The notes under the pieces are model-generated. The model was not told where the DNA came from. It searched no databases and was given only the letters and a program-made list of their open reading frames with translations. Below, piece after piece: positions 7,803 through 62,002 of a stretch of 64,000 nt of DNA; the stretch's first letter is position 1, and each line of letters opens with the position of its first letter. Position numbers and translations under genes: made by a program. The DNA lies in contig NZ_CP093442.1 of assembly GCF_022814725.1 (NCBI RefSeq), positions 1,054,001 through 1,118,000 on the forward strand, written 5' to 3'. This DNA is from Bdellovibrio reynosensis (GTDB lineage Bacteria > Bdellovibrionota > Bdellovibrionia > Bdellovibrionales > Bdellovibrionaceae).

Positions 7803-7840
7803 ACGCACCGTAGACGTAAAAAAGAACCAGGCACCTTTTA
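7803..7840 (-). repeat. Cassette-type direct repeat, copy 1 (3' of the HExxH gene)
   Basis: On the minus strand the repeat begins inside the gene's own stop codon, TAA, and reads AAGGTGCCTGG, TTCTTTTTTACG, then TCTACGGTGCGT. Copy 3 at dtd is the same apart from a few bases and is also fused to the stop codon. Copies 1 and 2 bracket the gene at 7838-8875 in direct orientation. Confidence 0.8.
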
Positions 7841-18480: not shown

Positions 18481-19715
18481 GAAATCTAATCATCGCTGCT
18501 ATCTATATCGGCGCCTTTTTATTGGTATCTGCCTGCAGCCCAGAGTCAGTTCCTTTGCGTGCTGAAAAACCATTGCATGACGAATTGGTTGTTGTTCCCC
18601 AAACCGAACACGTTCCTGAGCAAACTTTTGAGTGGATCACTGAAGATGGTGGCCAAAGCCAGCTAGAGTTCAATCCTCGCGTAGATATTCTTTTTGTGGT
18701 TGATAACTCTGACAGTATGAAGTCAGCGCAAGAAAATCTTGTTAAAAACATTGATGGCTTCACAGCTAGAATCACTAAAAACAAAATGATCGATTACCAT
18801 ATCGGCGTAATGTCAGTTTGGGATTCGTCTGAGCGTTATGCAAAGGCCAATGCAAACTCTTACCAAGTGGGTGATCTTCGTTTGGTAAAAGGTGGCACAA
18901 ACCAGAACTATCGCTTTGTTACTAAAGCCGACGGTAAAGGTGTTCTTGCCTCTACTTTGAACATCGGTGTTGCCCCTTTTGAAAAAGGCGGACCTGAGGT
19001 TGAAGAAATGTTTTCTCCTTTAGCTGCGGCTATTGAAAAAACAGGTCGTGGTGCTACCAATGAAGAGTTCTTCCGTGACGATGCTCAGCTAGTTGTTGTT
19101 CTAGTGAGTGATGCTGATGACGGCACTAAAGAATTAGATCCAGAACAATTGGCACAAAAGCTTGTTGAGTTTAAAGGTGGCGATGCTAAAAAAGTGTCTG
19201 CTTACGGCGTCCTAGTCCGCGCTAACGATCCAGATCAATATAAAGACTGGGCTTTAAGAATTCATCCTAAGTATCACCCGGAGTGCTTTACTGCAGTTAA
19301 ACAAACTGCAAAAAACAACGGAACTTGTACTGGTTTTGGTCCAGAGCGTTTAGAAAAGTTCATCGTGAAAGCGAATGAAGGCCAAGGTTTGACTCCGACG
19401 CAAATTAGAAACAACCGCATCATGAGCATCGTGAGCCCTACTTTCGGTTCTGACCTAGCAAAGATCGGCTCTGATATCACTGTTAAAACTTTGGAAAAAA
19501 CGATTTTCCTTAGCCAACGTCCTCGCGCTGAAAAGAACGGTAAACTGCAAGTGCGCGTTCGTTACGGAAATCAGTTGATCCCGCAAAGTGCAAACGGTGG
19601 TTGGTTGTACAATCCAGAAGACAACTCGATCCAACTTTCTGGCGACATCGACTATCAATATGTTGAAGGCGCTAGATTCTCGGTTGATTTGATCCCGTTG
19701 AATTTGAAGAAATAA
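18477..19715 (+). CDS. Lipoprotein with von Willebrand factor A domain
   Basis: A 412-residue lipoprotein starting with GTG at 18477 (overlapping the preceding stop, with AGGAGG five bases upstream); the lipobox is LVSAC near residue 20. A vWA domain begins near residue 70 (VDILFVVDNSDSM), with the metal-binding DxSxS pattern intact as DNSDS, followed by LVVVLVSDADDG. Extracytoplasmic vWA proteins bind ligands or partners through a divalent metal. It is the last gene of the ten-gene cluster, so it may be a surface or outer-membrane contact factor. It is followed at once by a structured post-stop element and a strong terminator. Confidence 0.8.
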   Translation: MRNLIIAAIYIGAFLLVSACSPESVPLRAEKPLHDELVVVPQTEHVPEQTFEWITEDGGQSQLEFNPRVDILFVVDNSDSMKSAQENLVKNIDGFTARITKNKMIDYHIGVMSVWDSSERYAKANANSYQVGDLRLVKGGTNQNYRFVTKADGKGVLASTLNIGVAPFEKGGPEVEEMFSPLAAAIEKTGRGATNEEFFRDDAQLVVVLVSDADDGTKELDPEQLAQKLVEFKGGDAKKVSAYGVLVRANDPDQYKDWALRIHPKYHPECFTAVKQTAKNNGTCTGFGPERLEKFIVKANEGQGLTPTQIRNNRIMSIVSPTFGSDLAKIGSDITVKTLEKTIFLSQRPRAEKNGKLQVRVRYGNQLIPQSANGGWLYNPEDNSIQLSGDIDYQYVEGARFSVDLIPLNLKK

Positions 19716-19763
19716 GTGGCGGAAGCCGCAGAGCTAAAGCGATGGCAGTCGCTTAGGTTAAAG
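19716..19763 (+). repeat. Post-stop structured element, copy 1
   Basis: It starts directly after the TAA of the vWA gene. The first hairpin is GGC-GGAA-GCC. The main hairpin is GCGA (19739-19742) with TCGC (19749-19752), then AAA opposite TTA, then AGCT (19732-19735) opposite GGTT (19756-19759). An intrinsic terminator follows eleven bases later. Confidence 0.65.
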
Positions 19764-20382: not shown

Positions 20383-20435
20383 AGCAACCAGCCTGCGCAC
20401 CTGCCGGTGCTCCGGCTCTGCGCGCGTCCGCGGTC
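20383..20435 (-). repeat. Post-stop structured element, copy 2
   Basis: On the minus strand it starts immediately after the infC TAG. The first hairpin is CGC-GGAC-GCG. The main hairpin is GCACC-GGCA-GGTGC (20410-20397), with GGA opposite GCA as a 3-by-3 internal loop and an outer stem AGCC (20417-20414) with GGCT (20393-20390). The thrS-infC terminator follows. Confidence 0.7.
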
Positions 20436-21113
20436 CTACTCTTCGCCTTCTTCTTCTTCGACTTCTTTAAGTTCGGCAAGTTCTTTAGTGTCTTGCTTAG
20501 AACCTTTCGGGTGAAGTTTTTGGTATTCTTTAATTTTAAGTGGATCAGGTCCCAACATTAGGAACATGTTTTTACCTTCCATTTTTGGCTGAGCTTCTAC
20601 TAAAGCTAAGTCATCAACGAAAGCGATACACTTTTTCATTACTTCCATACCAAGCTCTTGATGGGCCATTTCACGACCCATGAAACGCAATGATACTTTC
20701 ACTTTGTCACCGTCTAGTAAGAAACGACGAGCGTGGTTCATCTTAGTTTCAAAGTCATGCTGGTCCGTACGAGGACGCATTTGGATTTCTTTGATTGTCA
20801 CAACAGTTTGTTTTTTACGAGCTGCAGTGGCTTTCTTTTTATTTTCGTACTTCCACTTGCCGTAATCCATGATTTTACAAGTTGGAGGTGAAGCTGTTGG
20901 AGCAATTTCAAGAAGATCGAGGCCTCTATCTTCAGCAATACGTAACGCCTCTGGAACAGTCATCACTCCAAGCATGTTACCTTCATCATCGATAACACGG
21001 ATTTGTTGTGCGCGAATTTCGCGGTTTACTCTCAAAGAGTCTTTAGAGTCTTTTTTGCCGCGGTCAAAACGTCCGCCGCCACCACCTCTAAAATTACCTT
21101 CAAACTTGCTAAT
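20436..21113 (-). CDS. infC: Translation initiation factor IF-3 with AUU start codon
   Basis: The IF-3 core is unmistakable: RVNREIRAQQIRVIDDEG, CKIMDYGKWKYE, IKEIQMRPRTDQHDFETKMNHARRFL and KVSLRFMGREMAHQELG. The best start is not ATG, GTG or TTG. In frame, AUU at 21113 has a perfect GGAGG six bases upstream (21124-21120), and the frame is closed 24 bases further up. AUU is the classical infC start, through which IF-3 represses its own synthesis. This gives 225 residues with a 33-residue Gly/Arg-rich extension (NFRGGGGGRFDRGKK) before the core and an acidic tail (EEEEGEE). TTG at 21033-21035 would be an internal alternative with no good ribosome-binding site. It follows thrS by 43 bases. Confidence 0.93.
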   Translation of the reverse strand: MSKFEGNFRGGGGGRFDRGKKDSKDSLRVNREIRAQQIRVIDDEGNMLGVMTVPEALRIAEDRGLDLLEIAPTASPPTCKIMDYGKWKYENKKKATAARKKQTVVTIKEIQMRPRTDQHDFETKMNHARRFLLDGDKVKVSLRFMGREMAHQELGMEVMKKCIAFVDDLALVEAQPKMEGKNMFLMLGPDPLKIKEYQKLHPKGSKQDTKELAELKEVEEEEGEE

Positions 21114-41484: not shown

Positions 41485-42405
41485 GTGATTTTCTCGAATT
41501 CGCGAAACTCGAAGAACCAACGTCCGCCATTTGAAAAATGGTATTCCTATCTTCTTTTCGTTTTTATTGGCTACTGTATCGCTGATCTTGCCATTCTTGC
41601 CTACCGCGATCGCATGCTTCCACAATCCGCGCCAGCAGCCCGTCCCAAGGCTCCACCGATTGATACGAGTGTAAACCGCGGAGCTTATAACAGCATCACT
41701 TCCCGCAATATGTTTGCTTCAAATGGTGAAATTCCTGATCCTTTAGTTGATAAAACCAAAGGGCCTGAAGCGCAAAAAGAACAGGTCCCAGTCCCATCGC
41801 AATTGCCTTTAAATTTGATCGGAACTTTGGTTCATTCTAATCCTGATAAATCCCTTGCCGCGATTGAAGTTCGTGGCAAAAACCAGGTGATTTCTTACAC
41901 TCCAGGAAAAGAAATTGAAGGCATGGCTTCCATCGTGCGCGTTGAAAGACAAAAAGTTATCTTCCGTAATCTTAATTCAAATCGCATGGAATATATTGAG
42001 ATGAAAAAAGATGGCAATAAAGTGGCCTTCGGTGCTTCTGCCGTCAGTGCAGGCGGCAAAGAGGTGCAAAAAGCCGGCGATAACAATTTCGTGATCAAAC
42101 GTGCGGATCTTTTAAAATATACAAACGATCTTTCTAGCGTTTTGATGCAGGCCCGTGCGGTTCCCAATCGTGAACCAGGCACAGGCAACATCAACGGCTT
42201 CCGTCTTTTAGACATGCAACCTGGAAGCATCTATGAACAACTTGGCTTACAACGAATGGATGTCATCAAGTCAGTTGATGGCACGCCAGTAGACAGCCCA
42301 GCAAAAGCAATGGAACTTTATAATTCATTGAAAAATTCACCGAAAGTGACTCTGCAAGTAGAGCGCAACGGTAAGAACGAAACAATGACTTACAATATTC
42401 AATAG
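41485..42405 (+). CDS. gspC: Type II secretion system protein GspC
   Basis: A 306-residue inner-membrane protein: cytoplasmic tail, one helix (WYSYLLFVFIGYCIADLAILAY, about 19-40), a homology region (NSITSRNMFASNGEIPDPL to ITYTPGKEI, roughly 70-185) and a C-terminal PDZ domain (about 215-306, GFRLLDMQPGSIYEQLGLQRMDVIKSVDG). GspC joins the inner-membrane platform to the secretin. It starts with GTG, with AAAGGA ten bases upstream. First gene of gspC-N. A post-stop element lies between it and gspD. Confidence 0.9.
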   Translation: MIFSNSRNSKNQRPPFEKWYSYLLFVFIGYCIADLAILAYRDRMLPQSAPAARPKAPPIDTSVNRGAYNSITSRNMFASNGEIPDPLVDKTKGPEAQKEQVPVPSQLPLNLIGTLVHSNPDKSLAAIEVRGKNQVISYTPGKEIEGMASIVRVERQKVIFRNLNSNRMEYIEMKKDGNKVAFGASAVSAGGKEVQKAGDNNFVIKRADLLKYTNDLSSVLMQARAVPNREPGTGNINGFRLLDMQPGSIYEQLGLQRMDVIKSVDGTPVDSPAKAMELYNSLKNSPKVTLQVERNGKNETMTYNIQ

Positions 42406-42456
42406 GGCCTGCGGTCGCAGTGCCGACGCGCCCTTGGGCGCGCAGGCTGGAACAGC
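42406..42456 (+). repeat. Post-stop structured element, copy 3 (gspC-gspD)
   Basis: It starts right after the gspC TAG: hairpin CTGC-GGTC-GCAG, then main hairpin GCGCC-CTTG-GGCGC (42428-42441), GAC opposite GCA, and outer GCC (42422-42424) with GGC (42445-42447), tail TGGAACAGC. It lies inside the operon with no terminator after it. Confidence 0.7.
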
Positions 42457-46543: not shown

Positions 46544-47764
46544 ATGCCGATTTTTGAGTACAAAGGCCTTACCCGAGATGGAAAAAACGTAAAAGGCGTC
46601 GTTGACGCCGATAATTTGCGTACGGCTAGAACTAAGCTCAAAAAAGACAATATCTACGTCATCGATATCCGCGATAAAAAGAAAACAGACCCCAAGAAGA
46701 AAGCAGGTTCGGTTCGCACGACTAAAAAAGTCGGAGTGAAGGAACTTTCTTTGATGACCCGTCAGTTGGCGACTTTAGTTAAAGCCAACATTCCTTTAGT
46801 TGATGCTTTAACTGCGGTTTCTGAACAAGTTGAAAATCCTGTTTTGTCTGAAGCTTTGGCTGACTGTAAAAACATGGTCAACGAAGGGGCGACTTTGCAC
46901 AAGTCCTTAGCAAAGTATCCAAACATTTTCACCAATATATATGTTTCAATGGTGGAAGCCGGTGAAATGTCAGGAAGCTTGGACGTTATCTTAATGCGTC
47001 TTGCAGAGTTCACTGAGGCCCAAGCAGATTTGAAGGCCAAAGTCAGCAGTGCTATGACTTACCCGATCATCATGATGACAGTGACGATTGGTCTTCTTGG
47101 TTTCTTATTCATCTTCTTGATTCCAAAAATGGTGACGGTGTTTGAATCAGCGCCAAATCTGGAACTTCCTTGGTATACAGTCATGATCATTGATGCCAGC
47201 CAGTTCATGGTGAACTATTGGTACTTGGTTGTCGGTGTAGTTTTGATTACATATTTAATGTTCAAAAATTGGAAGAACACCCCGGCTGGTGCAAAACAGT
47301 GGGATGCAATTTCTTTGAAGCTTCCGATTGTGGGTCCGACCGTAAGAATGGTCGCGGTGTCTCGTTTTACTCGCACCCTTGCAACTTTATTAAACGGTGG
47401 CGTCCCCATGTTAGCCGCATTAGATATCGTGCGTAACGTAGTTTCTAACCATGTGCTTGCTAAAGCTATTGATGAAGCGCGCAGCAATATCTCTGAAGGT
47501 GAATCCATTGCAGGTCCATTAAAAAAATCAGGACAATTCCCGCCCATCGTTATCCACATGGTGAACATTGGCGAAAAAACAGGCGAACTTGAAAATATGC
47601 TTTCACAGGTTTCTGACGCCTATGATTTCCAAGTGAAAACCAAGTTAGAAGGTCTAACAAGTTTAATGGGTCCTGTGGTCATCGTTCTTATGGGTTTTGC
47701 AATCGGCATGATCGTGGTTGCGGTCATGGTACCTATGTTTGAAATGGCTAACATTGCCGGCTAG
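46544..47764 (+). CDS. gspF: Type II secretion inner-membrane platform protein GspF
   Basis: A 406-residue protein with the GspF/PilC layout: an N-terminal segment MPIFEYKGLTRDGKNVKGVVDADN, two repeated cytoplasmic T2SSF domains (about 70-190 and 275-395), and three membrane helices (near 175, 220 and 385). It links the ATPase to pseudopilin extraction. Its TAG stop lies in the loop of a GCCGGC hairpin that opens a post-stop element. Confidence 0.95.
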   Translation: MPIFEYKGLTRDGKNVKGVVDADNLRTARTKLKKDNIYVIDIRDKKKTDPKKKAGSVRTTKKVGVKELSLMTRQLATLVKANIPLVDALTAVSEQVENPVLSEALADCKNMVNEGATLHKSLAKYPNIFTNIYVSMVEAGEMSGSLDVILMRLAEFTEAQADLKAKVSSAMTYPIIMMTVTIGLLGFLFIFLIPKMVTVFESAPNLELPWYTVMIIDASQFMVNYWYLVVGVVLITYLMFKNWKNTPAGAKQWDAISLKLPIVGPTVRMVAVSRFTRTLATLLNGGVPMLAALDIVRNVVSNHVLAKAIDEARSNISEGESIAGPLKKSGQFPPIVIHMVNIGEKTGELENMLSQVSDAYDFQVKTKLEGLTSLMGPVVIVLMGFAIGMIVVAVMVPMFEMANIAG

Positions 47765-47838
47765 TCGCCGGCAGAGCTGGAGCGACGAATGTACTCCGAC
47801 GAAGTCGGAGTGTAGGCCAGCGTCGGAAGCTAAAGCAG
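47756..47838 (+). repeat. Post-stop structured element, copy 4 (gspF-gspG)
   Basis: GCCGGC (47756-47761) and GCCGGC (47767-47772) pair around a loop containing the gspF stop codon. The main hairpin is ACTCCGAC-GAA-GTCGGAGT (47793-47811), enclosed by CGACG (47783-47787) with CGTCG (47821-47825) and AGCT with AGCT. It is a longer variant of the family, inside the operon. Confidence 0.6.
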
Positions 47839-47931
47839 ATTACGCACGTCATTACAGGCACAATTCTTTACCTCCTCATAGTTCCCTGCTACGCTTTAAG
47901 CCTGATTTAGTGACTTAACTAAGGAGTACAC

Positions 47932-55137: not shown

Positions 55138-55578
55138 ATGTCTGGAGTAAATAAAGTTATCCTAGTGGGCCGCTTAGGCGCTGATCCTGAGGTTAAAGCT
55201 ATCGGAAGTGGCAGTACTGTAGCGCGATTGAACCTAGCAACTAGTGAATCTTGGGTAAAAGATGGCCAAAGACAAGAGCGCACTGAATGGCACAGAGTTA
55301 CTGTGTGGGGCAAACTTGCTGAGATCTGCGGTAAACATCTTTCAAAAGGTCGCCAAGTGTACGTTGAAGGTAAACTTCAAACTCGTTCTTGGGAAGATCA
55401 ACAAGGTCAAAAACGTTATACGACAGAAATCGTAGCAAGCACTGTTCAATTCTTGGGTTCTGCTGGAGCGGAAAGCGGTCAAGGCCGTTCGAACTCTGGT
55501 GGCGGTAACGATGATTACGGCTTCCAAGATTTCGGCCCGGAACCAAGCTTCGATTCTAACGACGAAATTCCGTTCTAA
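55138..55578 (+). CDS. ssb: Single-stranded DNA-binding protein
   Basis: A 146-residue protein binding single-stranded DNA in replication and repair. The OB fold spans about 1-108 ([65 protein letters not shown]); a Gly/Asn-rich linker leads to the acidic tip DSNDEIPF that docks partner proteins. ATG at 55138 has GGAGGG four bases upstream; the longer frame from TTG 55126 would start inside that site. A post-stop element and a strong terminator follow, so it is a single-gene unit. Confidence 0.97.
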
Positions 55579-55632
55579 GTCGGCGGCAGCCGGCAGAGCT
55601 GTAGCGCCGGCAGGCGCGTAAGCTGAAGCAGC
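55579..55632 (+). repeat. Post-stop structured element, copy 5 (best-formed)
   Basis: It starts directly after the ssb TAA: hairpin CGGC-GGCA-GCCG (55581-55592); main hairpin GCGCC-GGCA-GGCGC (55604-55617); GTA opposite GTA; outer stem AGCT (55597-55600) with AGCT (55621-55624); tail GAAGCAGC. A terminator follows 12 bases later. Confidence 0.72.
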
Positions 55633-61940: not shown

Positions 61941-62002
61941 CGGCGGAAGGAGGCCTGTCACGCCGTAGCTCCGCAGGAGCGGAGGAGGAAAGCTGGAGCA
62001 GC
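61941..62002 (+). repeat. Post-stop structured element, copy 6 (divergent form)
   Basis: Main hairpin GCTCC-GCA-GGAGC (61968-61980), GTA opposite GGA, outer CC with GG, tail AGCTGGAGCAGC as in copy 5. Unlike the others it does not follow a gene on its strand: it lies upstream of rsh, antisense to it. A terminator hairpin follows in its direction. Confidence 0.5.

Follow-up and report, generated by a model that had tools for sequence, protein, structure and literature searches.

A dispersed, REP-like repeat of about 54 nt, found only in the genus Bdellovibrio, usually lies directly behind stop codons and folds into two hairpins whose pairing has been kept while the stem sequences changed. We put at about 0.5 the probability that it is a mobile repeat retained mainly as an mRNA structure docked at the stop, with a role at the end of the cistron, and we favour such a role over a purely selfish REP-like element. 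An initial annotation of the window (the whole 64-kb stretch of DNA analysed here) had read six loci as copies of one RNA motif. Selection on base pairing stands from that reading, which has to be widened because the element is also a dispersed DNA repeat that behaves like a mobile REP. Restriction of this mobile-like repeat to one genus, the native origin of the stop and the constraint after insertion are added here. The result is a predicted structured RNA absent from Rfam, in a predatory bacterium, at core loci that include fli, gsp, ssb and infC.

Family members, fold and distribution

The six loci were folded, aligned and searched by BLAST against their own genome (a single contig of 3.58 Mb), in which copy 5 alone as the query gave about 10 dispersed relatives. 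Two covariance models were used: R1, from 13 own-genome copies, whose training set held stop codons in its first columns and is mildly biased in this respect, and R2, from 94 copies of other species only. R2 found copies 1 to 5 and not copy 6, so that five of the six loci are one family. Copy 5, the archetype, occupies 55576..55632 on the plus strand, where the native stop TAA of ssb (55576-55578; PF00436) is followed by the element and, 12 nt downstream, by a terminator (E = 3.4e-14 with R1 and 6.9e-16 with R2). Copy 1 (19713..19763, plus strand; 3.8e-8 and 1.5e-5, respectively) starts with the native TAA at 19713-19715, has GGC-GGAA-GCC as hairpin 1 and GCGAT-GGCA-GTCGC as the main hairpin, and is followed by a terminator 8 nt downstream; its RNA fold reached a z of -3.75 against shuffles. 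Copy 2 (20383..20438, minus strand; 3e-9 and 1.2e-7) stands behind the stop TAG of infC (20436-20438; IF3_N/IF3_C) and has a divergent tail and is followed by a terminator. Copy 3 (42403..42456, plus strand; 2.6e-9 and 3.7e-8) lies between gspC and gspD, behind the TAG of the gspC-like gene (42403-42405). In copy 4 (47756..47839, plus strand; 3.7e-5 with R2) the TAG of gspF (47762-47764; T2SSF) falls within the loop of hairpin 1, and the long main hairpin is a second, unrelated hairpin, ACTCCGAC-GAA-GTCGGAGT (47792..47811, plus strand), inserted in the apical loop.

Membership of the proposed copy 6 (61941..62002, plus strand) was rejected, with E values of 1.6 (R1) and 0.17 (R2). It has only a short core in common with the others, shows a fold no more stable than those of shuffled sequences (z -1.4) and lies on the strand opposite to its neighbour genes, and no stop codon was found upstream of it. 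The six-copy claim thus holds for copies 1 to 5. Adjacency to a stop, claimed for five loci, was found directly behind a long ORF for copies 1, 2, 3 and 5, with the stop of copy 4 placed inside the hairpin 1 loop; of the four terminators claimed, those of copies 1, 2 and 5 were recovered, whereas copies 3 and 4 run into the next gene of the operon.

With R1, 24 copies in the own genome passed E <= 0.01, and relaxing the threshold to E <= 0.2 raised the number to about 28. R2 detected the element in 22 of 24 Bdellovibrio species, at 2-49 copies each. Among 40 relatives searched it occurred only in this genus and in none of 16 other genera of the order, and when 84,980 species genomes were scanned for the pattern, the only matches were in Bdellovibrio. 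Copies 1 to 5 are one repeat family restricted to one genus. One exact pattern match was also seen on a viral contig (L196, IMGVR_UViG_3300016484_000153), which may be a prophage or carry host flank. No Rfam covariance model scored above its gathering threshold anywhere in the window, Rfam searches of 12 loci gave sub-threshold chance matches only, and a literature search returned no description of such a repeat in Bdellovibrio, in agreement with the earlier view that this is no described family.

The element runs from hairpin 1 through CAG and an interrupted main stem to a tail. The stem of hairpin 1 is 4 bp long (its sequences include CGGC, CCGC, GGCC and GCGC), the loop is GGNN in most copies, and the CAG behind this hairpin is nearly invariant (95-100%). 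The outer stem reads (A/T)GCY/RGCT, the internal loop GNA/GNA keeps its outer G and A at 96-98% with the middle base free, the inner stem is highly varied in sequence among copies, and the tail behind the main stem, GRAGCAR(C), is single-stranded and conserved. This confirms the layout drawn initially, namely a small hairpin with a GGNN loop, a 3-by-3 internal loop, an outer stem and a tail like GNARCAGC. Among 93 distinct copies, 91.7% of 1282 cells were paired, and 152 double-sided pair changes were counted against 34.4 +/- 5.8 in shuffles, which bears out the compensating stem changes noticed in the window. Sliding the structure by one column lowered pairing from 92% to 29-37%. G.U pairs were rare (13 versus 1063 Watson-Crick), below the expectation for selection on RNA pairing only, and this counts against the mRNA-structure reading.

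Tandem duplications of hairpin 1 units occur, and the second hairpin family is nested in the apical loops of copy 4, L028 and L035. Hairpins of this second family have the tail GTGTAGACCAG and are either nested or standing alone (window 47792-47811; L028, L035, L021, L044); a version with covarying stems, ACTCCTGC-AAA-GCAGGAGT, was seen in one species (G005, L147).

Position behind stop codons and host genes

Of 146 distinct copies, taken from the own genome and from congeners, 87 had an in-frame stop (ORF >= 70 codons, stops being assigned from open frames rather than annotation) 0-3 nt before hairpin 1; the same was true of 2.1% (0.021) of random non-coding positions. The initial annotation had put forward a covariance-model search as the check on its placement of the element at stops. 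The search gave many matches, mostly behind stops (21 of 27 in the own genome, one of which, L036, is weak and rests on a short ORF), and the placement stands. The remaining copies lay in an open, possibly coding frame (24), lay further downstream of a stop (18, many of them second units of arrays that start at the stop), abutted a possible opposite-strand stop (6, two of them doubtful because the ORF is short) or were unclassified (11).

Where the distance from the end of the stop to the stem could be measured (74 copies), it was -1 to +3 nt in 70, and the 3' gap from the element to the next start or terminator was loose (6-79 nt). The element is oriented in sense with the upstream gene, with a few copies antisense to the stop (L017; L121/L175/L179). 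Coding copies and antisense-side copies indicate that docking at a stop is not required for the element to exist. The 87 docked copies used TAG 42 times, TAA 40 times and TGA 5 times; among 493 other long ORFs the stops were TAA (232), TAG (164) and TGA (97), and TGA is under-used in front of the element (5/87 versus 97/493, p 0.001). A TAR stood at the 5' edge of 57/74 stop copies versus 4/43 copies away from stops. Filled and empty orthologues of ssb, gspC and a leucine-dehydrogenase-like gene (ldh) share the same C-terminus and have their stop at the same position. Judged from these orthologues, the docked stop is native to the gene and not supplied by the element. Stop-codon readthrough or recoding was rejected because the varying distance from the stop leaves no fixed downstream frame, and a bacterial SECIS because few of the docked stops are TGA and the stop is the conserved protein end in orthologues.

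Docked genes include ssb, infC, gspC, gspF, mnmE, fliE, fliI, fliK and a flagellar rod gene, as well as genes for ribonucleotide reductase and acyl-CoA dehydrogenase and a Topo VI A/Spo11-like gene (PF21180, PF04406), which has the element L034 behind its stop. Copies recur within the fli, gsp and mnmE-mnmG operons. One flagellar cluster (G000:C1:3017658-3026751) carries four copies in 9 kb (L041, L025, L042 and L020), each between consecutive genes, at the rod gene, fliE, fliI and fliK. About 10 docked copies of the own genome precede the next operon gene, with no terminator detected before the next start, and about 8 precede an intrinsic terminator. Because operon-internal copies are about as many as terminator-linked ones, terminators are not part of the element.

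Gain, loss and change in sister copies

Occupancy was patchy: the ssb site was filled in 3/24 species and empty in 21/24, and gspC was filled in 7/24, so that no host gene needs the element. Parsimony on a tree of host genes gave 3, 6 and 4 changes at the three sites, and within the close group G002/G006/G023 occupancy differed at each of them. At ldh, G023 has the element between TAG and TTAAA, a site that is empty in G002 and G006 and also in the outgroup, G016. No target-site duplication was evident at this insertion, nor was any duplication consistent overall. In the filled allele the final two codons are changed as well (AACAGA to AATCGC), so that the element may have arrived by recombination with another species. 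At the 3' end of ssb, G002 and G023 (L089, L090) have a longer, MITE-like inverted repeat, GGGATGAAAACGG ... CCATTTTGATCCC, directly after the same stop that in G006 is followed by the hairpin element.

In-frame coding copies are mostly read in one frame, A-A-D-A-G-S-A-x-A-P-x-G-A-x-A-x-A, and argue for copying at the DNA level. Such in-protein copies (L016, L061, L117, L122, L125, L133, L147, L164, L180) form Ala/Gly/Glu/Pro-rich linkers.

Inserted copies went on to change unevenly. In 16 non-coding orthologous sister pairs the unpaired core differed by 2.1%, the loops by 21% (Fisher p 7e-9) and the aligned 3' flank, where alignable, by 10.7%; conservation in such pairs may be inflated by score-chosen matches, re-insertion and interspecies recombination. 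Over all 19 sister pairs, nine base pairs had changed on both sides and were still paired, one had changed on both sides without pairing, and nine had changed on one side (five to G.U), while we estimate that an unpaired rate of 8.5% would give about 38 one-sided changes and < 1 compensated pair. At ldh, G011 and G021 show one compensated pair each relative to G012. Hairpin-templated correction could produce the compensations but not the conserved unpaired core. Since changes between sister copies are ten times rarer in the unpaired core than in the loops, constraint, on this comparison of sequences, is acting after insertion.

Interpretation and relation to known repeats

The reading that we favour is as follows. 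The element would spread as a short, non-autonomous DNA repeat and be kept mainly directly behind native stops. In the predicted transcript, hairpin 1 would begin 0-2 nt after the stop and the GNA/GNA stem at about 16-18 nt, with the single-stranded tail after it. A terminating ribosome would keep hairpin 1 unfolded in the mRNA channel and abut the main stem; when it departs, the whole structure would close at the cistron boundary. The closed structure, probably with a bound protein, may shield the upstream message from 3' decay, tune termination and passage into the next cistron, or both. The family raises the questions of how a repeat comes to stand at stops, by finding them or by being sorted to them, and whether mobile hairpins serve as ready-made 3' boundary elements of operons. 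CsrA, which binds GGA in a loop, was considered and set aside, the loop being usually GGCA, GGAC or GGTA.

A purely selfish REP-like DNA element with no host function is possible, and we hold it to be less probable than an mRNA role at the cistron end. A putative single-strand transposase would recognise the hairpins and insert them after TAA/TAG, insertions elsewhere would be purged, and pairing would be kept by the transposition signal, by hairpin-templated correction or by gene conversion. IS200/IS605 or RAYT chemistry inserts 3' of a short target with no target duplication, and the ldh insertion, found in G023 only among its sisters, lies directly 3' of TAG with no evident duplication; the under-use of TGA, the tandem, nested and in-frame coding copies and the few one-sided pair changes are consistent with the same account. 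However, TAR is missing from the 5' edge of copies that do not stand at stops, which argues that TAR is not the DNA target as such, and intergenic TARs other than stops are seldom used. The number of Y1 transposase genes did not track copy number (0 genes and 16 copies in G008, 12 genes and 3 copies in G022), R2 had no match in 31 Y1 loci within flanks of about 1-1.5 kb, and the unpaired core is still conserved after insertion.

It is rather unlikely, in our view, that insertion or retention of the mobile repeat is itself coupled to translation termination, which would fix it 0-2 nt behind UAA/UAG and avoid UGA; UGA is read by RF2, not RF1. If this were true, the repeat would represent a class of mobile RNA element for which the terminating ribosome is the address and which then acts at the cistron boundary. 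Still more doubtful is that the element forms part of a transcription termination or 3'-end processing site: the roughly 8 own-genome copies with an intrinsic terminator 6-28 nt downstream would agree with this, but behind the element stands the tail GRAGCARC and no U-tract, a terminator is separate or, in the operon-internal copies, was not detected, and docking is to the stop codon and not to the terminator. It is very improbable that the stop comes from the element itself, a reading that would make the stop association trivial and that has a precedent in GTAG REPs, whose termini frequently give flanking ORFs a TAG (PMC3733652). TAG is used in 42/87 copies, but the reading was rejected: ssb, gspC and ldh orthologues that lack the element have their stop at the same place, by which the idea is largely refuted, 40 TAA and 5 TGA stops are used, and no copy away from stops carries GTAG.

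Like the element, GTAG REPs/BIMEs with their RAYTs (E. coli, Pseudomonas, Stenotrophomonas; PMC3733652) are short GC-rich palindromes, dispersed, mostly extragenic and downstream of ORFs, with sub-families of alternative complementary stems, frequent contact with stops and occasional in-frame genic copies. Unlike them, the element combines two hairpins with a GNA/GNA internal loop, ends in a conserved tail and docks at native TAA/TAG; the GTAG tag was found in 11/74 stop copies, where it overlaps the stop, and in 0/43 others. With CGTC REPs and Rickettsia palindromic elements it shares the lack of a dedicated transposase and in-frame insertion into proteins (here Ala/Gly-rich linkers with A-x-A-G-S-A-x-A peptides), whereas most of its copies are at stop codons and not in genes, and the CGTC tag occurs in 1/117 copies. 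In E. coli, REPs that lie no more than 15 nt from a stop affect translation by stalling ribosomes, with lower translation or trans-translation as the sign of it; a stable hairpin near the stop is common to both, with a spacing here of 0-2 nt in most copies. The 5' end, CGGCGG..., and the 3' end, GAAGCAGC, form no inverted repeats of the MITE kind. In Xanthomonas, G-rich heptamer repeats lie on the sense strand < 50 bp from the stop, some overlapping it, and most are transcribed (PMC4692102); these are G-quadruplex tandem repeats, whereas the Bdellovibrio element consists of Watson-Crick hairpins. Short repeats near stops are known; this family adds the lock at 0-2 nt to native stops, gain and loss between sister species and a shape held afterwards.

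Partnership with a RAYT was rejected. The single Y1_Tnp gene of the own genome (L014), its only RAYT gene, lies between flagellin-like genes and is flanked by another repeat, of the GTAGACGTAAAAAAGAAGCAGGCACCT type. This repeat, present in the window at 7823, 8941, 19830 and 20318 and not docked at stops as the element is, appears to be the genome's genuine GTAG REP.
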